29,479 bases of DNA from a virus, in IMG/VR virus record IMGVR_UViG_3300010354_000410, positions 1 through 29,479 of that record. One strand, 5' to 3'. The notes beneath the pieces were generated by a model. It was not told where the DNA came from and did not search any database. It saw only the letters and a program-made list of their open reading frames with translations. Positions within the stretch are counted from its first letter, which is position 1. Each line of letters begins with the position of its first letter. Of the stretch, positions 8,510 through 28,635 are shown one piece after another. The position numbers and the translations under genes are program-made.

Positions 8510-8518
8510 GGAGTATAG

Positions 8519-9292: not shown

Positions 9293-9319
9293 TATATAAT
9301 TAAGTCCAATCAACACCCC

Positions 9320-9340
9320 ACCTGGAATAGTATTCCAGGT
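9320..9340. other. Perfect inverted repeat between barrel gene and terminator
   Basis: ACCTGGAATA is followed after one base by its exact complement TATTCCAGGT, giving a 10-bp inverted repeat; the practical loop would be 3-5 nt. It has no T-run and lies just before a true terminator hairpin. It could be an mRNA 3'-end protector or an operator-like site. Confidence 0.6.
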
Positions 9341-9343
9341 CCG

Positions 9344-9375
9344 ACAACCCCCAGAAATGGGGGTTGTTTCTTTTC
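9344..9375 (+). terminator. Rho-independent terminator
   Basis: The arms ACAACCCCC (9344-9352) and GGGGGTTGT (9359-9367) pair perfectly around an AGAAAT loop and are followed by TTCTTTT. It closes the replication/nucleotide transcript after the barrel gene and separates it from the glycosyltransferase gene. I see no clear promoter in the 25 bases between this and the next ribosome site, so some read-through may feed the next genes. Confidence 0.88.
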
Positions 9376-9399
9376 ATACATAGTAATAAAGGGGATTCT

Positions 9400-10464
9400 A
9401 TGTCAACTAGCGGTAACTCGAAAAGAAGAATTCTTTTCATTATTAAGCAACGGTATGCTTACGGCGAAATAACAAAAGCATACGGTCTTTATAATTCATG
9501 TGACTTTATCGCAAGAAAATTAAACGAAGTCGGAATTGTATCTGAAGTTGTTCAAGTTGTTGACAATAATTCAATTGACAGAGAAGTTGCCAGATTTAAA
9601 CCAACAGATGTATTTATAGAAGCACTATGGGTTGTCCCTGATAAATTTAGGGTTCTTTCCCGATTACATCCAACAGTGAAATGGCATATTCGTTTACATT
9701 CTAAGACACCATTTATTGCAACCGAATCTATAACTTTTGATTGGTTAAATCAATATATGCAATTAAATGCAGAAGGTATTGATATAGAATTAAGTGCAAA
9801 CAGTCGTGAATTTTATGATAATCTAAAAAATATTTATCGTAGAAATGTTTCATACACACCAAATTTATATCATCCCAATCAAATAGAATGCTCTGCTCCA
9901 ACTATAAGAACACATGGAGATGAAGTTCATATAGGAATTTTTGGTGCATTGCGACCACTCAAGAATCATTTACAGCAGGCAGTCTGGGCATTGGAATATG
10001 CTAATGAAATAAATAAGAATGTCGCTGTACATATAAATGTCAGTGAACATGAATCAAATTCTGCTGTGCATGGTATTGGAAATGTATTGACAAATTTGAG
10101 AAATTTATTTAATAGTCCTGGATGTAAAGGACGATTAGTAGAACACCCCTGGTATCCCCATTCTACTTTTTTAAAGGTTGTAGGTCAAATGGATCTTGGA
10201 ATGCAAGTTTCGTTCAGTGAAACTTTTAACATAACTGCTGCTGACTTTGTTTATATGGGAGTACCAATTGTTGTTTCAACTGAAATACCATTTGTCAATG
10301 GTTTATGTAAAATCAATACCAATTCTTCGGATGAAGCAGTTGCTGCTATGAAGATTGCAACAAAATTTGGAAGATTTGGTTTAAACAGAATTAATAAAAT
10401 GCTTTTAAATAAATGGAATGATAAAGCATTTAAAGAATGGAAAGAACTACTTAAAGGAGATTGA
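9400..10464 (+). CDS. GT-B fold glycosyltransferase (GT4-like)
   Basis: A 354-residue protein without signal peptide. It starts with a Rossmann-like strand (RRILFIIKQRYAYGEI). The second half (from about 178, VHIGIFGALRPLKNHLQQA) is the nucleotide-sugar-binding domain of GT-B enzymes. The block SFSETFNITAADFVYMGVPI at 271-290 corresponds to the acidic donor-binding motif of GT4-type enzymes. It likely acts in the cytoplasm, transferring sugar to a protein, DNA base or surface glycan; the acceptor is unknown. The start at 9400 follows AAAGGGG, and an earlier in-frame ATG at 9364 lies in the terminator. It sits between two genes for exported proteins, so surface glycan change is a reasonable inference. 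Confidence 0.82.
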   Translation: MSTSGNSKRRILFIIKQRYAYGEITKAYGLYNSCDFIARKLNEVGIVSEVVQVVDNNSIDREVARFKPTDVFIEALWVVPDKFRVLSRLHPTVKWHIRLHSKTPFIATESITFDWLNQYMQLNAEGIDIELSANSREFYDNLKNIYRRNVSYTPNLYHPNQIECSAPTIRTHGDEVHIGIFGALRPLKNHLQQAVWALEYANEINKNVAVHINVSEHESNSAVHGIGNVLTNLRNLFNSPGCKGRLVEHPWYPHSTFLKVVGQMDLGMQVSFSETFNITAADFVYMGVPIVVSTEIPFVNGLCKINTNSSDEAVAAMKIATKFGRFGLNRINKMLLNKWNDKAFKEWKELLKGD

Positions 10465-10465
10465 A

Positions 10466-11782
10466 ATGAAAAAACTATTCACACTAGTATTGGCACTGTT
10501 TGTAAACATTTGCGCATTTGCACAAACCCCACCAACTAAGGTTGTACAACCTGATGGAACAATACAACTTGTTCCTGTACCACCAGCGACAGTTTATACT
10601 CCATATTACATAGATCCATCTATGAATTATCGTATTCTACTCGAATCGCAATGGTCAAATAAAGATTGGGATGGAAGAAATAAAAACGGAACAATTGCAA
10701 AGAAAGATGATATTATAGATGTTCGTATTCTTGCCCAACCTATATCAAAAACTAAGGTTGTAAATGGAAAAACAGTACAACTTTGGAGTGTGTTCCGTGG
10801 TGGTGATTTTATCGTATCTTGGGATAACACAAAATTTGAACTATTACCACCTCTTGTTGGTGGATTCGGATACGATACAACTGTTATGAATTCTGCTAAG
10901 TCTGGTATCGTTGCACCAGATCAATCTGGTGGAGTTAATGAGTCTGTTCTTCCTCAAGATGGGACAGTTTTATTTCATGCTGAAGCACTTCCTGCACCAG
11001 AAAAAAGAATTCCTGCACTAAAACCATTATATTATCAATGGAATTTTGATGGTTATCTATGGGCAAATTCATATAGACTCATGGGAACTTTACGTTTTAA
11101 GGTAAAGGGTGATTTTTATTATCCAACAAGTCAATTAACTGATATAAAAATTCTTCCAACCGTAACTGTAAATGGAGTAGAAACTAAAACTCGTATTGAT
11201 GGAAGTCCAACCATAGGAACCAATATTTTAAGCGAAATTAGAAATGGAACTAATGGTATTAAATTTGGTGCTGGTGCTGACTACACAGTTTCACATTCAT
11301 TGATTGCACCAACAACTAAATTCAAAGTTGGAGATACTGTTCCTGTAAGAGTTGTTGTGAAGAACGAAACTCTTCCGCAAAGAGTATCAAGTGTTTCTTC
11401 TATTTTTGTCTGGGATAATACCAAACTAGAATTTATGGGAACGAATACAACTGGAGCAAAACCAGGTATGATCAATAGAATTGACATGGTTGGTCCTGGT
11501 GGTGTAAATGAAGTTACCGTACCAAAAGATGGTAATGCTTGGCATAATTGGTTATGTCTTCTAACTGATAAAACATATCTTGATAAAGAAACTCTTATAG
11601 TTACACTTAACTTTAAAGTGATCTCCGCATTTGATACTACTTCAGTTGAATTGATTCAACAAAATGATCCTAGAATTGCTGGTCTTATTCAGTATGATGA
11701 AACTGGCGTATTGGGAAGTGATATTCCTGGAGTGTTTGTAACTGGTCAAAAAACAAATGCAGTTGTAAATGGAACTCCATGA
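10466..11782 (+). CDS. Secreted protein with two cohesin-like repeats
   Basis: A 438-residue protein with a Sec signal peptide (1-19, cleavage AFA before Q). Two similar modules follow, about 82-235 and 288-425. Each holds a strand like FIVSWDNTKFEL or IFVWDNTKLEF, then GGVNExxxPxDG (155-166 and 346-356), and later a strand FKVKG/FKVIS. This pattern resembles cohesin/carbohydrate-binding-type beta-sandwich modules of large secreted proteins. No membrane anchor, dockerin or sorting tail is visible. The ATG at 10466 follows AAAGGAGA; the ORF upstream of it overlaps the glycosyltransferase. Probably exported to the periplasm or surface, with binding rather than catalytic function. The exact family is unproven. 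Confidence 0.7.
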   Translation: MKKLFTLVLALFVNICAFAQTPPTKVVQPDGTIQLVPVPPATVYTPYYIDPSMNYRILLESQWSNKDWDGRNKNGTIAKKDDIIDVRILAQPISKTKVVNGKTVQLWSVFRGGDFIVSWDNTKFELLPPLVGGFGYDTTVMNSAKSGIVAPDQSGGVNESVLPQDGTVLFHAEALPAPEKRIPALKPLYYQWNFDGYLWANSYRLMGTLRFKVKGDFYYPTSQLTDIKILPTVTVNGVETKTRIDGSPTIGTNILSEIRNGTNGIKFGAGADYTVSHSLIAPTTKFKVGDTVPVRVVVKNETLPQRVSSVSSIFVWDNTKLEFMGTNTTGAKPGMINRIDMVGPGGVNEVTVPKDGNAWHNWLCLLTDKTYLDKETLIVTLNFKVISAFDTTSVELIQQNDPRIAGLIQYDETGVLGSDIPGVFVTGQKTNAVVNGTP

Positions 11783-12180
11783 TGTATGAATATGTTGTTT
11801 CTCAAGTTGTTAAAGTTGTAGATGGTGATACTCTAGATCTAATTATAGATGTTGGATTTGACATGATGCGTAAAGAAAGAATACGCATAAATCGTGTAGA
11901 TACTCCAGAGAGCAAAACTACAAATGAACTTGAGAAAAAACTAGGATTAGATGCTAAACAGTATGTTGAATCGTGGGTTGAAAAACAAAAACAAATAAGA
12001 ATAAAAACTTTCAAAGACGATAAATATGGTAGAATTCTTGGTGAGTTGTTTGGTGACTCTGGTGAATGTTTAAATGATCTTTTAATTGAACACGGATATG
12101 CTTGGGAATATAACGGAGAAACCAAGAAAAAAGATTTCAAACTGTTATTAGAGAAAAGGAATAAAAATGGACATACCTGA
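11779..12180 (+). CDS. Staphylococcal nuclease-like (TNase) protein
   Basis: A 133-residue SNase-fold protein. The DGDT loop near residue 15, RINRVDTPES (calcium and catalytic arginine/glutamate region) and KYGRILGELF (second catalytic arginine) match the family. There is no signal peptide, unlike exported thermonucleases, so it would act in the host cytoplasm, for example in host DNA breakdown or nucleic acid processing. The first ATG overlaps the previous stop (ATGA) and a second ATG follows at once at 11782; either may be used. Its end overlaps the FtsZ-like gene by 14 nt. Confidence 0.87.
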   Translation: MMYEYVVSQVVKVVDGDTLDLIIDVGFDMMRKERIRINRVDTPESKTTNELEKKLGLDAKQYVESWVEKQKQIRIKTFKDDKYGRILGELFGDSGECLNDLLIEHGYAWEYNGETKKKDFKLLLEKRNKNGHT

Positions 12181-13360
12181 TTTAGAAATACCCGATCTAG
12201 AGTTAGAAGATTATAAGGAACCAGATACTACAATCGAAGATGTTGCTGATGAAAGTGGTGGATCTCATATTTTTGCATGGATAGGATCTGGTCAGGGTGG
12301 TGGTAGAATAGCAAAAGCATTCTATGACCGTGGTTATAAGAAGTGCATTGCTGTCAATACATCAAAGCAAGATTTATCAATTCTAGACATTCCAGAAACC
12401 CAGAAAATGCTTCTCGACATCGGAGAAGAGGGTGCAGGCAAGGACATGGAAAGAGGAGCAAATGCTACACTCAAATACAAACAAGAGATCTTTGATCTCA
12501 TGCGTAAAGTCTATGGCACAAAGGTGGATCATATTATGGTTTGCATTGGTGCTGGCGGTGGTAGCGGAAGTGGTTCCTCTCTTGTTCTGATCGACATTGC
12601 CAAGAAGTACATGAAATTTATCGGTCACGACAAACCAGAAGAGCGCGTAGGAGTCGTTATGTCTCTACCAACCCGTGGAGAGGCAACCTCACCCAAAGTC
12701 TCCTACAACGCTTATAGAGTCTTAAAACAAATAGGTGCACAAGCAGAGCGTAAGGAAATATCACCTCTGGTTATCCTAGACAATGCACGAATTGAAAAAA
12801 TGTACACAAACTTAACAGTCAAGGAATTCTGGAATACAATTAACAGCACAGTATCTGGACTGTTTCATATCTTTAATGTGCTTTCAAAGCATCCATCCCA
12901 GTATACATCATTCGATCCTACTGATTATGCAACAACATTCCGTTGTGGTGGTGTAATGGTAATGGGAGTTTCCAAATTAAATATTGATGGAAACAAACCA
13001 GCATCAAAGACATCAAATGAAACAGAGATTTCTAAATCAATCAAGAGTAATATTGATAAGACTCTTCTTGCTGAAATAGACATCTCAAATGGAACATTTG
13101 CTGCTTGTTGTGCAGTTGGAGGAAAGGATCTAATGGCAAACACAGCAGGACTGATGGACAGTCTATCCTATGGGTTTGATACATTATCTTCCCTTGTTCC
13201 AAATGCAACATTCCATAGAGGTATCTACGAAGATGATAAACCAACATTGAGACTATATACTTTAGTGTCTGGTCTTAAAATACCAAACAAGCGTTTAGAA
13301 CAATTTAAACTGAACTTTGAAAACAAAGTATTTGATGAAAAACACCCATTTGATTCTTAA
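12167..13360 (+). CDS. FtsZ/tubulin-like GTPase
   Basis: A 397-residue protein with the tubulin/FtsZ fold. The first phosphate loop is GSGQGGGRIA (40-49). The tubulin signature is GAGGGSGSGS (128-137), a variant of GGGTGSG. The T7-like synergy loop is FDPTD (249-253) followed by GGVMVMG, which keeps the two catalytic acids that FtsZ uses to fire GTP hydrolysis in the adjacent subunit. It should therefore form dynamic filaments. An acidic, repetitive amino-terminal tail of about 33 residues (IPDLEIPDLELEDY) precedes the fold. Phage tubulins (PhuZ, TubZ-type) centre or move phage DNA in large phages; alternatively the protein may interfere with host division. AAAGGAA precedes the ATG. Genuine phage tubulins are unusual in T4-like genomes as far as I know. 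Confidence 0.85.
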   Translation: MDIPDLEIPDLELEDYKEPDTTIEDVADESGGSHIFAWIGSGQGGGRIAKAFYDRGYKKCIAVNTSKQDLSILDIPETQKMLLDIGEEGAGKDMERGANATLKYKQEIFDLMRKVYGTKVDHIMVCIGAGGGSGSGSSLVLIDIAKKYMKFIGHDKPEERVGVVMSLPTRGEATSPKVSYNAYRVLKQIGAQAERKEISPLVILDNARIEKMYTNLTVKEFWNTINSTVSGLFHIFNVLSKHPSQYTSFDPTDYATTFRCGGVMVMGVSKLNIDGNKPASKTSNETEISKSIKSNIDKTLLAEIDISNGTFAACCAVGGKDLMANTAGLMDSLSYGFDTLSSLVPNATFHRGIYEDDKPTLRLYTLVSGLKIPNKRLEQFKLNFENKVFDEKHPFDS

Positions 13361-13362
13361 CT

Positions 13363-13917
13363 ATGCACATCGCTGGAATTGACTATTCTCTAAATGGACC
13401 TTCTATTTGTGTGTTCGACACAAAGAACAAATTTAATTTTGATAACTGTTCTTTTTACTATTTAACAGATACCAAGAAATACGCAACGACTTTCCGTGGC
13501 AACATACACGGAGAGTCGTTTGCTGATTATAACGGTGACTGTGAAAGATATGGATCTATATCTGATTGGGTTATGAGAATTTGTATTGGATGTTCTAGAG
13601 TAGCGTTAGAAGGTTATGCTTATAATGCTACTGGCAGAGTATTTAACATAGCAGAGAATACTGGAGTTTTAAAGTACAAACTATATCAGGCATCGATTCC
13701 TGTATATGTGATTGAACCAACTGTTGTAAAGAAATTAGCAACAGGAAAAGGAAATGCAGACAAACAGATGATGTTTGATTCTTTCTTTGAAGAAACTAAA
13801 CTAGATTTGCATAATATGATAACTCCCAACAAAACTAATGTTGGGAGTCCAGTGACTGATATAGTCGATTCTTATTATATCTGCAAGCAATTATTTCATG
13901 AGATTATTGGAGTTTAA
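13363..13917 (+). CDS. RuvC-like Holliday junction resolvase
   Basis: A 184-residue RNase H-fold nuclease. It begins MHIAGIDYSLNG (D7), has ALEGYAY (E83) after the fourth strand, the GRVFNIAENTGVLKYKL helix and a final DIVDSY with D166 and D169. These are the four acids expected of a RuvC-type enzyme. It would resolve branched DNA before packaging, a role filled by endonuclease VII (gp49) in T4. The ATG lies two bases after the previous stop. It is the last plus-strand gene of this block, and its 3' end overlaps the convergent minus-strand gene by 27 nt. Confidence 0.82.
   Translation: MHIAGIDYSLNGPSICVFDTKNKFNFDNCSFYYLTDTKKYATTFRGNIHGESFADYNGDCERYGSISDWVMRICIGCSRVALEGYAYNATGRVFNIAENTGVLKYKLYQASIPVYVIEPTVVKKLATGKGNADKQMMFDSFFEETKLDLHNMITPNKTNVGSPVTDIVDSYYICKQLFHEIIGV
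13822..13848 (-). terminator. Possible terminator of the minus-strand late operon, inside the resolvase gene
   Basis: ACTCCCAACA and TGTTGGGAGT pair perfectly around a 7-nt loop. The hairpin lies inside the end of the RuvC-like gene and just downstream of the last gene of the minus-strand operon. On the minus strand it is followed by TATCATATTAT, which is AT-rich but not a clean U-tract. It may end minus-strand transcription or block read-through between the convergent operons. Confidence 0.45.
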
Positions 13918-15372
13918 AAAAGACTCAACAATCTTTCTTCTCAATGGACCTTTTTTGGTGTATCTTTTTTGTGCTGATACTGGAACTGCTACATCTTCTG
14001 GTCCACCTAATCCTGCAATGCCACCAGCACCGACACTCATTTCTTCTTTTAATTTTTTGACTTTCTTTTGTTTTGGTTCTACTGTAGTTGTGTGTTTTAC
14101 TATTTTTGGACCTTCTTCGGCAGTATAGTCCACGAAAGGAACATTAGAATGTGGTTGTTCTCTTTCTTTGGTAAATCCTCTTTCAACTCCTCTTCTTCTA
14201 TTTGAAGCACTGAATCCGTGTATTCCTTCTTCGGTGAGTTTAGCAAGAGATACTTCTTTGATTGATCCATCTTCTTGTGGTATACCGAATGCCGATACAA
14301 GACCTTCGTGCTTTTGACCATGCATAGGAACAATTCCCATTTGATGTGCGTGTTCATGGAATTGATCTAGCATGTGTTTCTTTGCTTGTGAAATATGGTG
14401 CATATGATTTAACAGAGCGGATAGGTGTTCTCCATGAGTACCCATATGGGATTCTAGTTCAGATACTAAACCAGATCTTGCTTTATCACTCATATTTCTT
14501 TGAGTTGATTTTTCCATGTAACCATAGGAAGTTCTTGCGCCATGTAATGGTTGATGTAAATATGTTCTCATTGAATCTACAGATCTTTCACCTGTAGTTG
14601 CAACAACTTCGTTTGAATATTCCTGTAGAAACTTATGTAGTTTTGGATTTGCAAATACATTCTTTGCGTATTCTTGAACTTCTGGAGTCATTGCACTCAT
14701 TGCTTGATCTAAATGATGCTTGACTTTCTCGTTTCTTTCTTGATTTAATCTTATCTGACCAGATTTTATCTGAAGATCAGGAACAAATACATTGTCGTGT
14801 TTGAGTTGTTTGATATCAGGAACATTTGTTGTTCTAGTCAATTCATCATTGTCATTGACATGGTATTGACTATGAACCGCAATGCCAATTCCATGTTCTG
14901 TTGGTTTATATTTTACAGTATTTGGTTGAATGAAACCTTTTTCTTTTTCACCGTGATCTGCCCAGAGAAGATCTCCTTGAAATGCGTGTCCTGCTTGAAT
15001 TGGCATTTGCATTGCATGTGCAAGCATTTTCTTTCCATCCTCTGCCCAAGGAACACCAGCAGCATCTATTTCCTCTGGAGTGTGGAACATTTTCTTTCCA
15101 CTTTTATATGTGATGAAATATCTTCCGTCTAATTTTTTACCGACGACTAAACTGACTCCGCCATCTGCCTTTACAGACACAGTATGGTTGGGTGTGCTCT
15201 CACCGTTCATGAACTTATGCATTGCCTCTGCGTGCTTATATGCAAGCATTGGATCCCCATACATTGACCAATCGGCAATGTGGGTCATATGTCCAGTTGT
15301 TTCTGCTTCCTTTTTCTTTTCTTTCGCTTCCTGTAGATTTATGTTGTGGATAAGATGCGCTATTCGAATCAT
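13891..15372 (-). CDS. Ligase-like nucleotidyltransferase-fold protein of T4-like phages
   Basis: A 493-residue protein. Residues 64-90 contain KADG (68-71) in TVSVKADGGVSLVVG, the covalent nucleotidyltransferase motif I of DNA/RNA ligases. FQGDLLW (131-137) resembles ligase motif III, NTVKYKP (151-157) comes after it, and GIGIAV (161-166) resembles motif IV. Related proteins in T4-like marine phages are catalogued as a conserved family of unknown function (I believe DUF6267). The second half (from about 210) is helical and histidine/methionine-rich, ending in a basic tail. Its amino terminus INLQEAKEKK resembles a prohead-protease site, so it may be a packaged head protein. Start behind AAGAG. 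Last gene of the late operon. Confidence 0.72.
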   Translation of the reverse strand: MIRIAHLIHNINLQEAKEKKKEAETTGHMTHIADWSMYGDPMLAYKHAEAMHKFMNGESTPNHTVSVKADGGVSLVVGKKLDGRYFITYKSGKKMFHTPEEIDAAGVPWAEDGKKMLAHAMQMPIQAGHAFQGDLLWADHGEKEKGFIQPNTVKYKPTEHGIGIAVHSQYHVNDNDELTRTTNVPDIKQLKHDNVFVPDLQIKSGQIRLNQERNEKVKHHLDQAMSAMTPEVQEYAKNVFANPKLHKFLQEYSNEVVATTGERSVDSMRTYLHQPLHGARTSYGYMEKSTQRNMSDKARSGLVSELESHMGTHGEHLSALLNHMHHISQAKKHMLDQFHEHAHQMGIVPMHGQKHEGLVSAFGIPQEDGSIKEVSLAKLTEEGIHGFSASNRRRGVERGFTKEREQPHSNVPFVDYTAEEGPKIVKHTTTVEPKQKKVKKLKEEMSVGAGGIAGLGGPEDVAVPVSAQKRYTKKGPLRRKIVESFLNSNNLMK

Positions 15373-16291: not shown

Positions 16292-17875
16292 TTAGTCAGC
16301 AGAATTTTTGTTCTTCTTGCCACTCTTCATTTTCCATTCAATGTATGTTGCTAATCTATGTCTTGCATTTTCTGGAGTATCACCCTTTACAACTACTTTA
16401 GCAATTCCTTTTAATCTCTTTGCTCTTTTATCTCTACTGCGTATCATGCTTCTTGTCATTTTTCCACGATGTGCTTCATTTTTAACTTCTTCATTGATTG
16501 CTTTTGGTTTTTGAACTGGTCTTGGTTTTGGTTTTGGTTTATTTCCACCACCACAACCACATCCTTCAGTTAGAAACTTCTCTTTGACTTTCAGTTGCAA
16601 TGGATTCATTGATTCATTTACTGAAGACCAATCACCACCACGCTTCTTGTACCATTTTGCTGCCCATGCATTTGCGTATGCTGATGGATAGACATCAAAT
16701 TTTTGACGAGCAAGTGCTTTTGCTTTTGACCATAGTTTTTTGTTTGTTGGTTTATTTTTTGATTCTATTAGCATTGGTCTTGTGTCTCCTTCAAATGATT
16801 CGTTAGTTCCACAACGACAACCCCATACGCGGAGTGCTGCGTTGATCTTTGACTTTGGATCATTTGCGGTCTTTGAACTGGTTCTTCTTCGTTTCATTCC
16901 ACACATGCGAGCACAGAATGATTTTCTACGCTTTTGTGTTTTGCCTGATAATTTGCCAAATCCACCCTTGCGTTTTGCTTCATCTTTGGTTTCGATACCC
17001 GCATGAATGCCCTGTCTGCGTGCTTCTGCGCGAGACAGACCACCTTCTGGGTGATTCTTACCTTTATCGAAACCTTTGTATGGTTTTTTACTTTTCTTTG
17101 CTTCGATAATTAGTTGTTGTAGTGGTTCAAACATTTCTCTTAGTCCTCTAAATGATGCTATTCTTCTTATTGTATCAATATGTTCTGGTTTCATGAAAGC
17201 ATAGTTACTCGTTACTATACCCGATACTCTCATAGCATCTTGTTCTTCTTCTTTTCCGTGGTATGATCTATGACCACCAGCAGATGCTGGCACACCTTTC
17301 AATGTTGCTCTTGTTGGTTTACCACCAATTCCAGTAACTCTTAGTGCTGTTGCGTTTTGAGCAGATCCTTTTCTGTCCATAACTCTGACAATTAGTGGTG
17401 GTAAACTTCTATTTGGATAATGTTTTCTTATTGAATCCATGAAGGCATTATATGCATGAAAACGATCATAATGATCCATTGAAGTAAAATCATTATCATT
17501 TATCATTCTCAATAATCGATCATGATATTCTTGTGGATTTTCTCCATGTTGAATAACATCGTCTTCTTTTAAATATGATTCGTTCATTTTTTTCTTTCCT
17601 GGCCTATATTTATTTCTCGGACCATCCCATGTTTTTCCAGACTTATGTGAAGACCATTGCTTTCCCTTGCGATGTGCTTCTTGTTTCTTACGAACTGCCT
17701 TTTTCTTTTCTTCTGGAGACATTTCACTCCATGTCTGTGGACTTTTATCTGATACTCTTCTTGATGGACGACATTTTACACGACCACGACCTTTATATTC
17801 ACCGCATTTGGATCCATCTTGAGCAGTCCATTTTTCCTTAAACCATCTTCTTAAGTCTTCTTTGAGATTAATCAT
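16292..17875 (-). CDS. Modular, very basic late protein (possible packaged polyprotein)
   Basis: A 527-residue lysine/arginine-rich protein made of several short modules. An amino-terminal basic module (about 1-95) is followed by a helical segment (95-200). A third module (about 258-355) contains GLSRAEARRQGI, GFGKLSGKTQKRRKSFC and a CARMCGMKRRR cluster. A fourth (about 375-420) holds YPSAYANAWAAKWYKKRGGD, then comes a GCGCGGG/proline-lysine linker and a basic tail. The third and fourth resemble small recurrent basic domains of aquatic phages (I believe DUF6321 and DUF5872). Modules are separated by short segments such as QQLIIEAKK, RPMLIESKN and EKFLTEGCG, which look like prohead-protease sites. 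Start overlaps the end of the large gene by 8 nt. Likely virion DNA-binding protein. Confidence 0.75.
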   Translation of the reverse strand: MINLKEDLRRWFKEKWTAQDGSKCGEYKGRGRVKCRPSRRVSDKSPQTWSEMSPEEKKKAVRKKQEAHRKGKQWSSHKSGKTWDGPRNKYRPGKKKMNESYLKEDDVIQHGENPQEYHDRLLRMINDNDFTSMDHYDRFHAYNAFMDSIRKHYPNRSLPPLIVRVMDRKGSAQNATALRVTGIGGKPTRATLKGVPASAGGHRSYHGKEEEQDAMRVSGIVTSNYAFMKPEHIDTIRRIASFRGLREMFEPLQQLIIEAKKSKKPYKGFDKGKNHPEGGLSRAEARRQGIHAGIETKDEAKRKGGFGKLSGKTQKRRKSFCARMCGMKRRRTSSKTANDPKSKINAALRVWGCRCGTNESFEGDTRPMLIESKNKPTNKKLWSKAKALARQKFDVYPSAYANAWAAKWYKKRGGDWSSVNESMNPLQLKVKEKFLTEGCGCGGGNKPKPKPRPVQKPKAINEEVKNEAHRGKMTRSMIRSRDKRAKRLKGIAKVVVKGDTPENARHRLATYIEWKMKSGKKNKNSAD

Positions 17876-20800
17876 TGTCTGCCCTATTTGCTGATTTGCT
17901 TCTAACTCTTAGATTATGCTTACCGTTGTTTTTGGGATTTCCGTCTTTGTGGTCAACATCTTTACCATCACCCTTACGAACTTTACCAAGTTTCATCATG
18001 AGTCTACGAGCAAGAACTCTTTTGGATCGATTCTTTCTTTGCTCTGGTTTTGAATGGTAATTATCATACTCTTTGCGGTAATTTCTTTTCTCTGTGAGTA
18101 ATGCTTCTCCCAATGCTGGAACATCCATTCCAGGAACAGGATTATCAATTGGAATCTGTACGGGAATTCTAAATTCATTTCCATTAATAAACACTCTGTT
18201 GAATGTATAACCTTCATTTGGTATCGTATCTAACCAGTCAACAGAAGGAGATAAATCATCAAAATCAAATAATGGAATTATGATTTTTAAAAATTCCATT
18301 GGATTTTGTTCAGCAAGTTGTTTTAATTGATCAAAATTTGCTTTCATTTCGTCTTCAGTTGGTTGCGGTGGTGATTCTTCTTGTTTTTCTAGTAATAATG
18401 AAACTAATTTCACTCCATTTAATTTTGTAACTGGAGTGAAATCTTCTTTTAATTGTTCTAGATTGATTTCGTTAATCACAACACGAATAGTATTTCTTAA
18501 AGAATATGATCTAAAATCATCTAGATCTGTTAGTTTCTTTCCTTTTTTCTTTGCTTGCTCTTTAAGTTGTTCCCATTCTTTTTCTTGATCTGTTGTTGCT
18601 ACCGCGTTCGATTTTATACGAGAAGCAATGTCTATCTTACATTTTTTTGCAAGATCCAAATTTACTGGTGCTATTTTTACTTGTGATCCATCATGACTGA
18701 CTGCAATCATGGTGCTGGCAATTGCATCACTTCCTTGTTTGAATTTGTGGAATCCTGTTATTTGAGCAAGTGTATAGAGTGCTTGTAGATCCTTTGATTT
18801 AGCAAATACTTTATCTAACATATCTGTTAATTTTTTGTTTGCTTTTTCTTTCTTGGTAACTCCAGGATCTTGACCTGCAAGTGGACCTTTCTGTGTGTAT
18901 AATCCAGATGGTCCACTTTCTGTTCTATGATAACCACCATACTCATCACCAGAAAGGTAATCAGTAATTTTCTTTACATCTTTTCTGACATCTTCTGGTA
19001 AAGTTATTCCGAATTCTTCTGCGTTGTCAATTGTCCACTCTAGAGCAACATATGAATCTTGCCAGTTACCTGATGATGCTTGTCCTGGTCCACATTTAAC
19101 TGATGCATTATCTACTACTTTTTGTGTTTTTCTATCTAATACTTGCACATCAGTCTTTGATGTTTTATTTGTGATTCCACCCTTTTTTGCTTTATCGTTC
19201 AGTTGCACATCATCCATGCTACTGCCAGTTACCTTGAACATGACATCAGAGCCATATTTCTTGATCAGTGCGTCTGACATTTTCTCTAGTGCTGGATGCA
19301 AAGAAGCATGTGGATTTTTAAGAATTGCTAAAGCAGTTCCTTCATCTACTAATCCTAACTTTATTTGTTCTTGTACAGATACTCCATTTTTTGTATTTGC
19401 AAACAATGCCATACCTGGTTCTACAATTTTAGCATCATGTGATGTTGGATTGACACAGTGTTTTGACTGTCTCTTCTTTGGTTGAATGTTGCCAGGCTCA
19501 GGATCAAATTTTCCTGGTTCTTTTGGCATCATTTCTTTTCTTGCTTTCTTTTGTTCTGGTGTCAGTTCATCTTTTTTGTCTGATGCTTTTTTTGCACCTT
19601 TAGATTTTTTAGACTTTTTGGGTTCAGCAGCAGCTACTTTTGCTTTTCTGATTGTTGCTTTTTGCTCTCCCTTGATCATACCATACAATTCAATTGAAGA
19701 ATCGGTATTGACGAATCCCTTTTGTGTTGTTAATTTTCTACCAGCACCAATGCTGAATTTATCTGGAGCAAGAACTACATCCATTGTGTTTGGATTTATG
19801 GATTCTTTATCTACAATCATTTCTCTTCCAGCAAATTTGCCAGATTTAGATTTCACGATTGCATATCGTCCTTTTACATTTCCAGATGCTTTACTTGATT
19901 CAATTTTTGTTCTTTCTTTTTTCTTTCGTAGTCTTGCTTTGGAACGTGAAGCAGCACTATTTGCTCCAGTGGTCTTTTTTCCTAACTTCTTTTGACCGAC
20001 TCTTGCTTCTAACAGCAATGGCAATAGTAAATTTTCAAGAGATTCTTTTCTTGTGCTTACTCTTCGAAGTCTTTCATTTTCTCCACGAATGACATCTGGC
20101 ATGATTCTACGAACCATTGAGTCTGCTATTTTTCTTCTTTTATTTACATTTTGATCAATTCTTGCTCTGCTTGCAAATCCAAGTTTTTGCCAAGATCCCT
20201 TAAAATAACGATGCCTCAGTTGATTTTTAATATCTTGTTTTGCTCTACCTTTTAGTTGTCTTACATTTCTTCTTCTTTTAACTCTTGCTCTTCTCTTTGC
20301 TGCTCTTAACTTTGCAGTTCTTTTTGCAATACGAGAAAGTTTGAGTCTGGTAGCAGCAGAAACTTCTTCCTTTAGATCGACTTGTGCTTGTTTTAATCCA
20401 CCACGAAGTTCATCGAATAGTTCTCTTGCGTGCTCATCAGGTACATGTTGTGGAATCATTGATCTAACTTGTTCAAAATCATTATTTGCAGCGTGTTGAC
20501 GCATAAGTGTGCTGGATGCTCCTCTTATACCTTTTTCGCCTTCTTTTCTTTGTTGACCGAACTGTATAACTTTGACTCTATCTCCATACTTTTCTTGTAA
20601 TTTTTTACCAGTTTCATCTTGAATTCTATCCGATCCAAGATGCACATGAATTTCACCATATCCACTTTCAAGTAATTTTTCAATTGCAGAATATGGACTT
20701 TCCTCAAGTCTAATATTTTTTGTTCTGAAGAATCTTTCGAGGTGTTTTAATTTTTGTTCTGGACTGAGTGGAGTATCTGGGTGTGGTCTTGGAGTTTTTA

Positions 20801-20945
20801 GTTTTTTCATATGTCTCTGACTAGCATAAATCATATGATCCATGTTATTATCTTTTGCGTATTGCATAACATGTTCACCCAACCCCATGTGTCCTATGTG
20901 TGGAGGGTTCATTTTACCGAAAGTTATAGAAATCTTTTTTACCAT
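17868..20945 (-). CDS. 1025-residue mosaic: nucleotidyltransferase, basic, nuclease-like and HNH-like modules
   Basis: Residues 1-185 form a cytidylyltransferase/NMNAT-like domain with HIGH at 16-19, GSDR near 104-107 and SSTLMR (144-149), the two nucleotide-binding signatures of that superfamily. A very basic helical module follows (about 195-300). The centre contains SKTDVQVLD then NASVKCGPGQ, reminiscent of a PD-(D/E)XK nuclease core. The last 60 residues are HNH-like with DVDHKDGNPKNN (996-1007). Between modules lie LPLLLEARVG, VSLLLEKQEE and GEALLTEKRN, which resemble T4 prohead-protease cleavage sites. No Shine-Dalgarno precedes the ATG; instead TATAAATA ends 5 nt before it, predicting a leaderless late mRNA. 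Head gene of a five-gene late operon. A packaged polyprotein delivered with the DNA is an inference. Confidence 0.85.
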   Translation of the reverse strand: MVKKISITFGKMNPPHIGHMGLGEHVMQYAKDNNMDHMIYASQRHMKKLKTPRPHPDTPLSPEQKLKHLERFFRTKNIRLEESPYSAIEKLLESGYGEIHVHLGSDRIQDETGKKLQEKYGDRVKVIQFGQQRKEGEKGIRGASSTLMRQHAANNDFEQVRSMIPQHVPDEHARELFDELRGGLKQAQVDLKEEVSAATRLKLSRIAKRTAKLRAAKRRARVKRRRNVRQLKGRAKQDIKNQLRHRYFKGSWQKLGFASRARIDQNVNKRRKIADSMVRRIMPDVIRGENERLRRVSTRKESLENLLLPLLLEARVGQKKLGKKTTGANSAASRSKARLRKKKERTKIESSKASGNVKGRYAIVKSKSGKFAGREMIVDKESINPNTMDVVLAPDKFSIGAGRKLTTQKGFVNTDSSIELYGMIKGEQKATIRKAKVAAAEPKKSKKSKGAKKASDKKDELTPEQKKARKEMMPKEPGKFDPEPGNIQPKKRQSKHCVNPTSHDAKIVEPGMALFANTKNGVSVQEQIKLGLVDEGTALAILKNPHASLHPALEKMSDALIKKYGSDVMFKVTGSSMDDVQLNDKAKKGGITNKTSKTDVQVLDRKTQKVVDNASVKCGPGQASSGNWQDSYVALEWTIDNAEEFGITLPEDVRKDVKKITDYLSGDEYGGYHRTESGPSGLYTQKGPLAGQDPGVTKKEKANKKLTDMLDKVFAKSKDLQALYTLAQITGFHKFKQGSDAIASTMIAVSHDGSQVKIAPVNLDLAKKCKIDIASRIKSNAVATTDQEKEWEQLKEQAKKKGKKLTDLDDFRSYSLRNTIRVVINEINLEQLKEDFTPVTKLNGVKLVSLLLEKQEESPPQPTEDEMKANFDQLKQLAEQNPMEFLKIIIPLFDFDDLSPSVDWLDTIPNEGYTFNRVFINGNEFRIPVQIPIDNPVPGMDVPALGEALLTEKRNYRKEYDNYHSKPEQRKNRSKRVLARRLMMKLGKVRKGDGKDVDHKDGNPKNNGKHNLRVRSKSANRADND

Positions 20946-23062: not shown

Positions 23063-24522
23063 TGCTCTCCTTGTGGACCCTCTGGCGGATTTGTTGGTGG
23101 ATTTTTTTCTCTTAGTCTTTTATTTATTAGTTCTTGTGCTCTTTGAGAAATTGCTTTATTTCTTGCTTCTTCTGCTGCTATTCTTGCTTCTTCTTGTTCT
23201 GCTGCATGTGCTCCAGCAACTCTTGCTTCACCTTGCTCCATTGCATGTGCTCCAGCAACTCTTGCTTCACCTTGTTCTGCTGCGTGTGCGGATCTAATAT
23301 CTGCTTGTTGTGGTGTTGGTTTTGCTGTTTTTGGTTTCATTAATATATCATCCACAACACCTCTTACTGTTGCTCCTGGCATCTTGTCTAGGTTAAGTGC
23401 TAAACCTTTGGCAGTGTCCAATGCACTGTCTATTCTAGAAACTCCTCTACCTAATGCTGAATTTGCAAATGCAGGTTCAAATGGTTTTATAAGTCCAGGT
23501 GCAACCTTTCCACCAACAGCTATTCCTGTTGCAATATTTGCTAATCTTGTTGTTAGAGGTGCATCTTCTGGTGTGGAGTAAGATGCTACAACTCCACCAC
23601 CAGCAGCACCAGCTGGATCCCAGTTAAATTTTTTATTGATGTTTGACAATGCTGTTCTAGTGGATGCATTGATATCTTTTATTCTTTGTGGAATGACTCT
23701 AGATGCAGTATTTGAAACTGCTTGGGTTGCTCTTGATGCTGTGTTTGATACTGCTGTTGCTGCTTGTGATGTTTTTTCACTAACTTTGGAGGTAATTTTT
23801 GCAGTTTTTTCTAGTGCGCTTTTGCCTCCTGGAATCGCTCCGATTACTGCTTTTCCTGCTTTGGTGGTTGCTGCACCAGTTACTGTCGCAATAGGTTTAG
23901 CATATTTTATTGTACCAAGAGTCCCTGCTTCTATTGCTCCACCAACAGCACTTCCGTAATTATCCTCATCTGATCTATATGATGCCAATACTCCTTTTGA
24001 TTTTCCATAATCAGCTGCAGCCTTTGTTGCCTTTATACCAGCAGCAACAGGATATGCAGGAGTATAAGTTAAAGCATTTGTAGCTACATCAGTTGCTGTG
24101 TTTGCTGCAAATTCTCCAGTTTCAAACCATCGTTGAGCTTGGTCTTCTCCTTGATTTTTGAGTGATCGGTTTTTCCAATTCCTTGCCATTTCACTTGCTT
24201 GTTTTCCAGTTATTTCACCAGATTGTACTGCTCTTAAAATTGGTCCAGGATTTTCTGGTGTTCCGAAAGCAGTTTCTAGTTCTTCTATTTCCCGATCTAT
24301 TCTTTCGGTTGCAGCAACATCGACTGCACTCTTTTTTTGCATTTCGGAATCATAATACCTTTGATATCTTCCAACAGTTGCATCATATAATCTACTACCA
24401 ATATCACTTGGTGCTTTTGGTTTTTGATCTGGTTCCAATGAATCTCTTTCAAGAACTTCATTTATGGATAATTTATTTTTGCTAGACAATTGCTGCAAAT
24501 GATGTAAGAATTGTTGATTCAT
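23059..24522 (-). CDS. Alanine-rich repeat protein, candidate internal head/ejection protein
   Basis: A 487-residue protein. A charged helical start (1-150) is followed by an alanine/glycine/valine-rich region (about 150-360) with hydrophobic segments such as GGAIEAGTLGTIKYAKPIAT and DPAGAAGGGVVASYSTPEDA. A repeated SNTASRxTQAV / SNTASRVIP run occurs near 255-275. Three 13-residue repeats AHAxEQGEARVAG lie near 415-450, followed by a charged alanine helix. The composition resembles membrane-active internal virion proteins ejected with DNA, though no family is recognised. The start overlaps the previous stop (TAATG), and GGAAGAAG lies upstream. Signs of repeat expansion are clear in the DNA. 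Confidence 0.72.
   Translation of the reverse strand: MNQQFLHHLQQLSSKNKLSINEVLERDSLEPDQKPKAPSDIGSRLYDATVGRYQRYYDSEMQKKSAVDVAATERIDREIEELETAFGTPENPGPILRAVQSGEITGKQASEMARNWKNRSLKNQGEDQAQRWFETGEFAANTATDVATNALTYTPAYPVAAGIKATKAAADYGKSKGVLASYRSDEDNYGSAVGGAIEAGTLGTIKYAKPIATVTGAATTKAGKAVIGAIPGGKSALEKTAKITSKVSEKTSQAATAVSNTASRATQAVSNTASRVIPQRIKDINASTRTALSNINKKFNWDPAGAAGGGVVASYSTPEDAPLTTRLANIATGIAVGGKVAPGLIKPFEPAFANSALGRGVSRIDSALDTAKGLALNLDKMPGATVRGVVDDILMKPKTAKPTPQQADIRSAHAAEQGEARVAGAHAMEQGEARVAGAHAAEQEEARIAAEEARNKAISQRAQELINKRLREKNPPTNPPEGPQGEQ
23182..23298 (-). repeat. Three 39-bp tandem repeats in coding sequence
   Basis: Units at 23182-23220, 23221-23259 and 23260-23298 begin TCTTGCTTC and share CATGTGCTCCAGCAAC; the third diverges at its end. 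Each encodes 13 residues (AHAxEQGEARVAG type), so the length is in frame. Confidence 0.9.
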
Positions 24523-24920
24523 TATCTTCTTCCTGGTGTTTCTAATGGCATACTGCTTGGTGTATACATACCAGGCCCTGGTCTAAAGAAGTCTGATCCT
24601 CCGTAGAAGTAATCATTTGTATACGCTTGCCCTGCTCTTTTTATTGCCATTTCTTTTGCTCTTCCACCAGATACTACTGTTTTTGGTGCTTCCCGAGGAT
24701 CAAATTCTGTTTGTTCTGGTTTATCTATTTCAACTTTTAACTGATCCTGATCACTTGGAAATGAAGCTGGATAGTTTTTAGCTTGTAAATATTTTGGATT
24801 TAATATTTTTTTAGAAGGATCAGATGGATCGGTGATGTATTTGTCAGGCATCAATTCCATAGTTGATGTGATAAAATCTCGGTTTTCAGATATAAACTGT
24901 TTAAATGTTAACCTAACCAT
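24522..24920 (-). CDS. Small late protein with capsid-targeting-like amino terminus
   Basis: A 132-residue protein starting MVRLTFKQFISENRDFITST. The TFKQFISE segment resembles the T4 capsid-targeting sequence (MKTYQEFIAE), after which prohead protease would cut. The rest is proline- and charge-rich with a tyrosine/glycine segment (YTNDYFYGGSDFFRPGPGMY) and looks extended. AGGAAGATC precedes the ATG, which lies 13 nt inside the zinc-ribbon gene. Likely an internal or scaffold-associated head protein, inferred from the motif and late operon. Confidence 0.7.
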   Translation of the reverse strand: MVRLTFKQFISENRDFITSTMELMPDKYITDPSDPSKKILNPKYLQAKNYPASFPSDQDQLKVEIDKPEQTEFDPREAPKTVVSGGRAKEMAIKRAGQAYTNDYFYGGSDFFRPGPGMYTPSSMPLETPGRR

Positions 24921-25442: not shown

Positions 25443-26018
25443 TTATTTCTCCTTATTTTTATTTATGCTAACTTTCTTTTTGATATGCGATATGATTCTT
25501 TTTGATTTTTCGTCAATTGGTGCTTTTTTCTTAAGAATTGTACCAGAATCTGTTTTGGTTACATCAAAAATCTTATTTTCTGGATCTAATCTACTGATTA
25601 ATTCTTTTGTGAACTTAAATCCTTTTGAAAACTTTAACACATCTGGGTCATGTGATTGTACATGATGTTGAACTGCGGGGAGAATGGTTCTCATCAAATT
25701 AATATCTGGTTCAAAATCTTTTACTTCACTGGAGAATGATGATGTTGTTTCGTGTCCAGATGAAGGATTTGCATTTAATCTATGGTCGATTTCAATTAGT
25801 CCAATGCTACCTTTATTTGAAAATCTGTATACATGAGTTCCATCATTTTTAGATTTTGCTTTTTCTCTCGGAACAAAATCATATTTAACAGGAATTGCTG
25901 CTTGAATATAACCACGGTGAATCACATCTTTAGTTTGTGGAGTATCAACCACATAAGCATCGGGTGTGTTTCTTTTCTTTACAGATTCATGGATGGATTG
26001 AAAAACTTCATTAATCAT
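25443..26018 (-). CDS. Hypothetical late protein
   Basis: A 191-residue protein starting MINEVFQSIHESVKKRNTPD. The first 16 residues form an amphipathic helix with a [I]HE|S site reminiscent of prohead-protease sites. The centre is a beta-rich domain (IPVKYDFVPR, THVYRFSNKGSIGLIEIDHR) and the tail is lysine-rich (KKKVSINKNKEK). Its start overlaps the stop of the lysozyme-like gene (ATGA), so they are coupled. No known domain. A virion protein is inferred from the operon. Confidence 0.7.
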   Translation of the reverse strand: MINEVFQSIHESVKKRNTPDAYVVDTPQTKDVIHRGYIQAAIPVKYDFVPREKAKSKNDGTHVYRFSNKGSIGLIEIDHRLNANPSSGHETTSSFSSEVKDFEPDINLMRTILPAVQHHVQSHDPDVLKFSKGFKFTKELISRLDPENKIFDVTKTDSGTILKKKAPIDEKSKRIISHIKKKVSINKNKEK

Positions 26019-26671
26019 TTTAGATAATCCATGTGTTCATTATAGTGAGTTGTGAAATTATTCAACCAATGTTTGTTTAACCCCCTTGGATCATTTTGAA
26101 CTCCGTGTGGAGCATATCTTGTTTGAAGATAATGAGTAAATCCACTATAACCAGACTGGGATTTTGAATCCATCCCTTGCCATTCGTTTATTCTTTTGTT
26201 TAAAATTGATGCTGCCCACCCTGCTTGCCTATCCAGTGTTTGACCTTTTGGACCAACGGCTTTTGCATGAAGAACTCCAAATTCTTTTCCTGCTCTTCCG
26301 TTTTCAGTTTTACGAATAGCAAACAACATTCCTAATTTATCATGATCGGTTTCATTGATTCCATTTCGTTTTGCAGCATTCATGATAACATCATATTCTG
26401 ATCCAAATTTTTTTCGAAGACCAGTGTGAAAATTATCATGAGCAACTTGTGCTGGATCTATTTTTGGTTTTTGCTCTTCTTCTTTTTGTTTTTGCGCTAT
26501 TTGTGTTGCAACGGGAACGGGTTCAGTGTGTGTTGTTTGTTGTGGTTGTCCGCCTTGGTTGGACATAAATTTCAAACCAGCAGCGCCAGCACTTATAGCA
26601 CCAAACGTTAGAGCAGCACCAAGTGCTTTATCTACAAAACCTTCTTCAATATATTGTTTAAATGTTTTCAT
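26015..26671 (-). CDS. Lysozyme/transglycosylase-like virion protein with capsid-targeting-like start
   Basis: A 218-residue protein. It begins MKTFKQYIEEGFVDK, nearly identical in pattern to T4 internal-protein capsid-targeting sequences. A hydrophobic alanine/glycine helix (about 16-33) and a Gln/Pro linker precede a domain (about 75-218) that resembles lysozyme-like folds: IRKTENGRAGKEFGV with E123 as candidate acid, KAVGPKGQTLDRQAGWAASI and a Tyr/His-rich end. It may be packaged in the head and ejected to open peptidoglycan at DNA entry; alternatively a maturation protein. The assignment of the fold is by pattern only. Start overlaps the previous stop (TAATG). Confidence 0.72.
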   Translation of the reverse strand: MKTFKQYIEEGFVDKALGAALTFGAISAGAAGLKFMSNQGGQPQQTTHTEPVPVATQIAQKQKEEEQKPKIDPAQVAHDNFHTGLRKKFGSEYDVIMNAAKRNGINETDHDKLGMLFAIRKTENGRAGKEFGVLHAKAVGPKGQTLDRQAGWAASILNKRINEWQGMDSKSQSGYSGFTHYLQTRYAPHGVQNDPRGLNKHWLNNFTTHYNEHMDYLK

Positions 26672-26835
26672 TAGTAATTCCTGTGTCTTTTAAACCATTC
26701 AATCTGTTTTAATCGTTTGAGTGCTGCTTCTTTACTTCCATATTTACCGAGTCTCTTACCTTTTTTGCTGAGTATTGTATACTCATCTCCAACTTTGCGA
26801 ATTGTTTCGGATAAAAGATTTTTAAAGTTTTTCAT
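26671..26835 (-). CDS. 54-residue basic protein with capsid-targeting-like start
   Basis: MKNFKNLLSETIRKVGDEYT... starts with the pattern of T4 capsid-targeting sequences (hydrophobic helix ending in L-S-E then T). The rest is a compact basic fold (KKGKRLGKYGSKEAALKRLK) resembling small conserved phage proteins of unknown function. It is too short to be convincing alone, but the ATG lies inside the end of the preceding gene with AGAGAAC upstream, and the stop overlaps the next start (TAATG). Likely an internal head protein binding DNA. Confidence 0.72.
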   Translation of the reverse strand: MKNFKNLLSETIRKVGDEYTILSKKGKRLGKYGSKEAALKRLKQIEWFKRHRNY

Positions 26836-27535
26836 ATTGTTCTCTAATAAATTGCTTGAATCCCATAATCGGTATATACGAATCTCCAAGACCTTTTCTT
26901 CTCCAGAAGTTCCATTCGGCAGTCGTCATATTACCTTGACCCATATTGGGTTCTTTTCCCAATCTAGAGGTATCCACAACTGGAATAGAATCTCTCTTTG
27001 GAGTTTTCTTTGGAGTTTTCTTTACTGGTTCAACAGTTGGTTTGTCTTTTATGCCACCAACAAGTTTTTCTATATGTTCTAATGAAGTGATAAATCCCAA
27101 ATCGTCTTTGCCAGTGATCTTTCTAATTTTTTCCGCTATCTTATATTCGGCATCACCATCAAATGGGGTTAATTCAATAGTAAATTTTCTTCTTGGGTAT
27201 TGTGAATAATGTCTATGTAAAGTTCTAAGTGCGTTTTCAAATTTTCGTAAAGATCCTCCCGTGGGGCTTTCATATGTTAAAATATGGTTATGGGATTGTT
27301 CATCCGAATCTCCCATATTGCTTCCAAAATAATATTCTCCACGAATAAATCCCCGATTGGCAGCTCGTCTATAGAGTCTATCATTATTGTGATCATTAAG
27401 TGCATGGTTAAGACTTTTATATCCGAATAGTTCATGATTACCAAAGATAAAATCGCCATGCATCGCGTTTTTACGGCGAATTGGGTGAAGGTTGCCGTCT
27501 GGGTCAAACCAATGTTTATCAGTAAATTCGTTCAT
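26822..27535 (-). CDS. Hypothetical late protein, first gene of the large late operon
   Basis: A 237-residue protein starting MNEFTDKHWFDPDGNLHPIR. The amino-terminal half is rich in Asn, His, Tyr and Arg (NHELFGYKSLNHALNDHNND). The second half contains KKTPKKTPKR linker and ends MGFKQFIREQYEKL, a capsid-targeting-like motif at the C terminus rather than the N terminus. No Shine-Dalgarno precedes the ATG; TATAAATA ends 6 nt before it. The upstream bases read ATGTAATG, a start-stop minimal ORF touching the real start. No domain recognised. It heads nine coupled late genes (27535 to 22061). Confidence 0.75.
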   Translation of the reverse strand: MNEFTDKHWFDPDGNLHPIRRKNAMHGDFIFGNHELFGYKSLNHALNDHNNDRLYRRAANRGFIRGEYYFGSNMGDSDEQSHNHILTYESPTGGSLRKFENALRTLHRHYSQYPRRKFTIELTPFDGDAEYKIAEKIRKITGKDDLGFITSLEHIEKLVGGIKDKPTVEPVKKTPKKTPKRDSIPVVDTSRLGKEPNMGQGNMTTAEWNFWRRKGLGDSYIPIMGFKQFIREQYEKL

Positions 27536-28434: not shown

Positions 28435-28635
28435 ATGAAATCATTTAAACAAATATTATCTGAAGCAAAGAAGAAACAAAAAGAAGATCCTAATCAACTT
28501 TCTCTTGGTGCTGAATACGAAAAAGCAAAACAAGAAAATCAAGATAGAAAAGAACAAGAGGATGAAAAAAGAGAACGCGAGCGAGAAGAAGCAGCGGATG
28601 ACCGAGAATTTGATCGCGGTATGTATCGCAGATAA
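28435..28635 (+). CDS. Small charged protein with capsid-targeting-like start
   Basis: A 66-residue protein, MKSFKQILSEAKKKQ..., whose first 11 residues match the pattern of the T4 capsid-targeting sequence (hydrophobic helix then L-S-E-A). The rest is an almost uninterrupted charged helix of Glu, Lys, Arg and Gln, likely a coiled coil. No Shine-Dalgarno; TATAAATA ends 5 nt before the ATG, and the ATG at 28429 in the same frame lies on the promoter itself. It stands alone between a terminator upstream and noncoding sequence downstream. Likely an internal head protein. Confidence 0.72.
   Translation: MKSFKQILSEAKKKQKEDPNQLSLGAEYEKAKQENQDRKEQEDEKREREREEAADDREFDRGMYRR

Follow-up and report, generated by a model that had tools for sequence, protein, structure and literature searches.

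The window analyzed here (IMG/VR record IMGVR_UViG_3300010354_000410, positions 1 to 29,479), a linear virus fragment of 29,479 bases, carries on its minus strand two genes encoding multi-module proteins of 1025 aa (17868..20945) and 527 aa (16292..17875), which are probably head-cargo polyproteins of the T4 superfamily that the prohead protease would process before their ejection into the host. The two genes overlap by 8 nt and belong to a block of hypothetical genes on the same strand (13.9-27.5 kb of the window), the plus strand holding the replication genes. According to the mechanism that we propose, both polyproteins would have arisen by fusion of genes that each had a capsid-targeting/cleavage sequence ahead of a cargo domain, and they would be incorporated into the prohead core during assembly. 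During head maturation, a gp21-type protease would cut after the Glu of [L/I]-x-E in flexible linkers, freeing an NMN/NaMN-adenylyltransferase-like enzyme, a basic domain of DNA-binding type, a probable PD-(D/E)XK nuclease, an HNH nuclease, and small DUF5872/DUF6321-type basic domains; these modules would remain with the packaged DNA and be ejected alongside it into the host. A more specific version, which we hold with somewhat less confidence but still favor, is that these are true head-processed polyproteins, in which the fused tags became internal prohead-protease sites and joints for the trading of effector modules, one gene thus providing an equimolar set of enzymes per virion.

Modules and candidate sites of the two proteins

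Both open reading frames have the lengths given by an earlier reading made from the letters of the window, hereafter the sequence-only reading; coordinates below are those of the window, and all modules and sites of the two proteins lie on the minus strand, with a slash marking the candidate cut. The 1025-aa protein opens with a nucleotidyltransferase (NTase) module of the NaMN/NMN adenylyltransferase or PPAT fold (residues 1-190, 20376..20945). This module, already suspected by the sequence-only reading, is recognized by phrog_3041 (E 3.6e-28), by Foldseek (NaMN adenylyltransferase 2qtm_A, E 3e-5) and by a VIA fold match over residues 2-188 (Z about 14), and has the motifs GKMNPPHIGH (HxGH) and GASSTLMR (SSTxxR), with PF01467 (CTP_transf_like) scoring 16 bits, below its curated cut-off of 21. 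The candidate site VDLKE193/EVSA (LKE at 20367..20375), with [LIV]xE in 10/10 module-bearing homologues, leads to a Lys/Arg-rich helical domain defined by alignment (residues 194-300, 20046..20366). The site PLLLE313/ARVG follows (LLE at 20007..20015, within NLLLPLLLE; the border is kept as NFLxE in relatives), then a middle domain around residues 330-430 and a PD-(D/E)XK-like module (residues 498-825, 18471..19454). Beyond it come a linker with three candidate sites, VINE826, QLKE834 and SLLLE853/KQEE (18387..18476), based on the low confidence of the structural model and on reading of the motif, a small domain, and the two sites ALGE947 and ALLTE952/KRN (18090..18113), [LIV]xE preceding the HNH module in 12/12 homologues. 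The C-terminal HNH module (residues 953-1025, 17871..18089, DVDHKDGNPxNN) matches HNH_3 (PF13392) above the cut-off (26.4 versus 24.8 bits), in line with the HNH-like tail noticed earlier, and is 45-51% identical to stand-alone viral HNH proteins. The AlphaFold predicted local distance difference test (pLDDT) falls below 50 at residues 190-195, 300-329, 431-497, 826-862 and 930-954.

The possible PD-(D/E)XK core of the sequence-only reading stands only in part. The invariant residues E509, D599 and S615-x-K617 and the predicted a-b-b-b-a order of residues 498-825 are consistent with such a core. No match was obtained from Pfam, PHROGs or fold searches, the VIA search being filled by the NTase domain and covering residues 2-188 only.

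The 527-aa protein starts with MINLKE/DLRRW, which is no canonical capsid-targeting sequence (CTS; MKxF..hh.E), and its first candidate site, INLKE6/DLRRW (LKE at 17858..17866), is present in 10/10 homologues. A first DUF5872 stretch (residues 7-95, 17591..17857; PF19197, E 3.4e-13, 50.7 bits versus a cut-off of 27.5) is followed by the site YLKE104/DDV (LKE at 17564..17572; 7/7 module-bearing homologues) and by a middle module defined by alignment (residues 105-245, 17141..17563), missing from the homologues in loci L004, L007, L008, L009 and L011. Next come the site LIIE258/AKK (IIE at 17102..17110, in the context EPLQQLIIE; FKQLIIE or LKQLLAE in relatives; 12/12 homologues) and a module at residues 262-355 (16811..17092) that we name DUF6321-like, because PF19846 stays below its cut-off (E 8e-4, 20.4 versus 28.5 bits) but related PHROGs match with E down to 1e-12 (phrog_4689, E 1.4e-12). 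The site MLIE371/SKN (LIE at 16763..16771; 9/9 homologues) precedes a second DUF5872 stretch found by Pfam and PHROG (residues 374-418, 16622..16756), and the sites FLTE437/GCG (LTE at 16565..16573) and AINE462/EVKN (INE at 16490..16498; 12/12 homologues) accompany a linker rich in G, C, K and P ahead of a basic C-terminal module. Here pLDDT is below 50 at residues 1-14, 71-109, 357-372 and 437-466, so that the site at 104 lies inside such a stretch, as do those at 371 and 462, and the site at 437 marks the beginning of one. The six motifs quoted in the sequence-only reading, i.e., those at 313, 853 and 952 of the 1025-aa protein and at 258, 371 and 437 of the 527-aa protein, are exact, and the others listed here lie at the remaining borders. 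Cutting by an embedded peptidase was also considered and rejected, as Pfam and PHROG searches found no peptidase family in either protein.

Homologues from IMG/VR loci were compared: 11 for the 527-aa protein, and for the 1025-aa protein nine covering the greater part of the chain (one of these without the NTase module), plus one more distant, one split into two genes and one cut off by the contig end. A scan of viral contigs with the whole 1025-aa protein gave no confirmed relative, and its homologues were reached via the neighbouring gene. With module starts set by conserved domain sequence, independently of the motif, [LIV]xE is found no more than 14 aa ahead of where the module begins in 56/57 and 22/22 border cases, versus 22% and 16%, respectively, of random positions in the same proteins; the 79 cases (78 with the motif) come from related sequences and do not count as independent events. 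The P1 residue is E and the P3 residue L, I or V, while P2 varies over about 15 residues. The motif thus falls at module borders in relatives, as the sequence-only reading would have it. The number of [LI]xE motifs is striking in the 527-aa family (94 versus 38.3 +/- 5.3 in shuffles) and only modestly in excess in the 1025-aa family (133 versus 93.3 +/- 8.5), and the argument is therefore carried by position and conservation. Border sites lie nearly all in low-pLDDT linkers, which hold 7/15 [LI]xE in 17% of the residues of the 1025-aa protein and 5/7 in 29% of those of the 527-aa protein.

Relatives differ by whole modules, and in the alignments the breakpoints are at the candidate sites. The homologue in L008 lacks the NTase module and begins NLNPVIANFLNNFINE/EVSAQTR, that in L011 is split in two genes at a border, that in L004 has an extra module inserted between the NTase and the basic domain, and a module that is internal in L010 is N-terminal in L003 and L006. 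Seven homologues, and not the window, have a small Cys-containing module (GSCWxGYK...VPNCVP).

Capsid-targeting sequences, prohead protease and probable virion cargo

The organization of Melnitz-2, an isolated phage with a complete genome and an S77 protease, suggests where the internal sites come from. Four adjacent Melnitz-2 genes separately encode a PD-(D/E)XK-like module (CTS MQGFKTFLSE/A; profile E 1.2e-34), a DUF6267 protein (INFSKYITE/D; E 3e-10 to the protein encoded at 13891-15372 in the window), a basic module (MKKFSELTSELIE/R; E 5e-5) and an NTase (MKKFSEIIE/A; E 1.6e-38), each led by a CTS. Three of these four modules are fused in the lineage of the window, and the hydrophobic-x-E part of the tag is kept as linker. 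Since the modules exist in Melnitz-2 as separate CTS-led genes, the internal sites appear to be CTSs that were retained when the genes fused.

Other proteins of the window bear such sequences at their N-terminus. On the minus strand, these are a 218-aa protein (26015-26671; MKTFKQYIEE at 26642..26671, also based on a CTS profile), a 54-aa protein (26671-26835; MKNFKNLLSE at 26806..26835) and a 132-aa protein (24522-24920; MVRLTFKQFISE at 24885..24920), and on the plus strand a 66-aa protein (28435-28635; MKSFKQILSE at 28435..28464), all four having T4-like N-termini. The DUF6267 protein (PF19782; 13891..15372, minus strand), the relative of the tagged Melnitz-2 protein, has NINLQE/A at its N-terminus. 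The CTS profile was made of 110 different N-termini from the fetched loci, chosen on MK[STKN]F alone; E stands at position 10 in 53/110 of them, and positions 7-8 are mostly hydrophobic. A 237-aa protein (26822-27535, minus strand) ends in IMGFKQFIREQYEKL, which is CTS-like and located at the C-terminus instead of the N-terminus. CTS-like starts are also seen in a lysozyme-like protein (MKSFSMFYEE) and a zincin-like metallopeptidase (MKKFKQHLRE) of the related contig G029 (L248:10021-11192, contig positions 124021-125192).

G029, a contig of 156,711 bases, has the same genes in the same order as the window and encodes a Peptidase_S77 of the gp21 family (E 2.3e-40) with the blocks GELNHP, GVSSRG and ADPSAP. 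The search for a gp21-like protease advised by the sequence-only reading thus succeeded in the lineage, in a syntenic relative rather than in the fragment itself, and S77 proteases were present in all T4-type isolates tested. The proteases of T4, phiKZ and SPN3US all cut C-terminally to Glu (PMC5694885), and LIE-9 of gp21 fits the gp21 cleavage logo (PMC9026906). The G029 capsid protein reads ALAEGMLTE/APANAIGGGF at the cleavage-equivalent position, where other capsid proteins have FLTE/Y (G036), YLAE/Y (G050), YITE/Q (G031) and LLTE/A (S-CREM2). T4 gp23 is cut at this position.

The cargo appears to borrow from the capsid protein: the 527-aa homologue of G029 holds LGE/VMSMGGNFATGQVGDEVNPNLAGYDPIM, matching the mature N-terminus of the G029 capsid protein (score 83, shuffled maximum 52). 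Similar capsid cassettes are found in other CTS proteins and in S-CREM2 gp160, and the cassette in the cargo is closest to the capsid protein of its own phage in 4/4 genomes in which both are readable, the best of 24 permutations. Small proteins likewise carry a copy of the post-cleavage N-terminal arm of the capsid protein (GGGF..xQ...NPxLAGY[DS]P), some directly after a CTS and some at the C-terminus (L195:10252-10857, L178:6301-6927, L193:12243-12638, L211:11112-11495, L213:10272-11084).

Packaging in the head would follow from homologues found in cyanophage virions. A cytidylyltransferase/NMNAT homologue was detected by proteomics in virions of S-SM1 (PMC3037559), S-CREM2 (PMC10665884) and S-SCSM1 (PMC9602691), and the published virion list of S-CREM2 (PMC10665884) includes gp137 and gp160, both multi-module and of the 527-aa type. 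GenBank labels S-SCSM1 QFG06285 a 'virion protein', and similar modules are joined in it by [VIM]xE. In S-CREM2, S-SRM01 and P-SSM3, the homologue of module 1 starts with a CTS. Of the non-structural S-CREM2 proteins with an N-terminal F..(h)[LIV]xE, 4/6 are present in virions, versus 22/177 of the remaining non-structural proteins (Fisher p = 0.004). In Pag-Yong1, HTVC104P and P-SCSP1k, which have no S77 protease, the DUF6321-like module stands alone with no [LI]xE ahead of it.

Capsid-targeting N-termini were also noticed in the virion-detected S-adenosylmethionine (SAM) hydrolase (MKDFDSFLEE), gp13 (MKDLHSFLTE) and kinase (MKRFDAFLTE) of S-CREM2, and its virion-detected Cas9-type nuclease has RFASFMAE/A at residues 18-25. 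These four proteins are probably injected cargo; the corresponding genes of this phage (OR473000) are located at L275:3837-5081 (gp6), 7704-10313 (gp12), 10310-10546 (gp13) and 10579-12846 (gp14).

Alternative explanations

Several observations weigh against packaging, cutting and ejection of the two proteins. The 1025-aa protein opens directly with the NTase (first residues MVKKISITFGKMNPP) and has no canonical N-terminal CTS; internal linkers keep the hydrophobic-x-E part and rarely the MKxF part; and in a CTS profile scan of the two proteins the linkers did not rise above shuffled maxima. The motif [LI]xE is short, and in the 1025-aa protein 8/15 copies fall within predicted folds, where they are probably not sites, as judged from the model; the enrichment of sites in linkers relative to other glutamates is weak (Fisher 0.08 and 0.07). 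PF03420 has no match in the window contig and no protease gene lies in the 29-kb window, an absence that is uninformative because the contig is a fragment. The authors of the S-SCSM1 study mention that detections in cyanophage virions could include carry-over (PMC9602691). It also counts on this side that cutting at the sites, like ejection and enzyme activity in the host, is something we infer. Since the MKxF part is missing, we do not claim the internal linkers as full CTSs, and because the proteins have the border sites and lack a canonical N-terminal CTS, we regard them as acting like CTS cargo and not as standard members of this class.

The proteins might instead be packaged whole, as uncut polyvalent proteins whose L-x-E linkers only bind the scaffold core, or of which only the first linker is cut. 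The targeting and processing parts of the T4 CTS are indeed separable, as Asp at position 10 still targets (PMC9026906), and some polyvalent proteins enter the virion uncut, e.g., the N4 virion RNA polymerase (PMC5512222). Yet the borders keep the processing part (hydrophobic-x-E) while most linkers lose the targeting part (MKxF), the opposite of what targeting alone would lead one to expect, and we consider this explanation unlikely. Rather less probable still is that the polyproteins work mainly in the head and not in the host, their basic modules being structural core or DNA-condensing pieces comparable to the T4 core peptides: the modules are strongly Lys/Arg-rich and gp22, gp67 and gp68 of T4 are processed to fragments (PMC5694885), but NTase, HNH and PD-(D/E)XK-like modules with conserved motifs would be left unexplained, and such a role would be compatible with processed cargo for some modules.

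The least probable explanation, to which we give very little credence, is that the motif is incidental to L/E-rich flexible linkers of ordinary multidomain enzymes that are synthesized inside the infected cell and have a homing-type HNH tail. It draws on the degeneracy of the motif, on its copies within domains, and on the gene set adjoining replication genes. Conservation at 78/79 borders with a free P2 speaks against it, as do the separate CTS genes of Melnitz-2, the copies of the capsid cassette and the homologues in virions. Processed head cargo is favored because the Melnitz-2 CTS genes, the capsid cassettes, the motif-free DUF6321-like proteins of phages without S77 and the virion homologues also fit it. 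The sequence-only reading that the proteins are packaged, cut and injected is thus supported, its cutting and host-entry steps being conditional.

Other genes, known systems and implications

A few other genes deserve mention. On the plus strand, a Tubulin/FtsZ-family GTPase (12167-13360; PF00091, E 1.5e-12) scores far under the FtsZ equivalog cut-off, and two proteins amid the replication genes have signal-peptide-like N-termini (10418-11782 and 8519-9292), the former with a weak similarity to cohesin (E 0.006). PEP-CTERM-like tails occur in the protein at 1-258 of the window (VPAPSALALLAVAGIIGRRRR) and in that at L247:13121-13750 (contig G029 108121-108750; IPSPGAIGLLAIASLVSSRRRV), a hint that both phages infect an exosortase-bearing host.

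The proposed polyproteins resemble several systems that are already known, i.e., CTS cargo, gp21 processing, multi-site processing in giant phages, and polyvalent proteins. With T4 IPI-IPIII and Alt they share a hydrophobic-x-E before the cargo, a lineage that encodes a gp21-family protease, and a cargo that is basic or enzymatic and varies while the tag in front of it is conserved (PMC9026906, PMC3012670), but T4 has one cargo per N-terminal CTS (Alt also being cut C-terminally), whereas repeated in-chain sites part 5-6 modules here. Polyvalent proteins of phages and conjugative elements also combine many unrelated domains per chain, are predicted to be delivered with the DNA and have been likened to viral polyproteins (PMC5512222). 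Their processing has been ascribed to metallopeptidases within the chain or to an assemblin-like peptidase at the C-terminus, an embedded peptidase (zincin or assemblin-like) being their commonest domain and not a required one, while the sites described here match a separate prohead protease. In the ejection proteins of giant phages (phiKZ, 201phi2-1, SPN3US), a single head protein is cut several times after Glu and is ejected (PMC5694885, PMC10052503), but the extra cuts break up discarded propeptides, at motifs such as A-x-E or S-x-E, and our candidate sites lie between conserved domains. The cytidylyltransferase/NMNAT proteins found in virions of S-SM1, S-CREM2 and S-SCSM1 are homologues of module 1, yet mostly shorter and single-module. 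What seems new is a chain of enzyme and basic modules parted by prohead-protease sites and derived from fused CTS genes; none was found in the open-access literature that was searched, nor any prohead-protease-processed multi-module protein in cyanophages.

The S-CREM2 result suggests that virion cargo can be predicted by recognizing the CTS in the sequence, including the SAM hydrolase, the kinase and perhaps Cas9. With such predictions, many cyanophage 'hypothetical proteins' and auxiliary enzymes would become injected effectors open to testing, and the cut ends could be sought in existing virion mass-spectrometry data. If the proposal is true, a large group of aquatic T4-like phages would use a single chain to deliver several enzymes as a set, the equivalent in bacterial viruses of a polyprotein.

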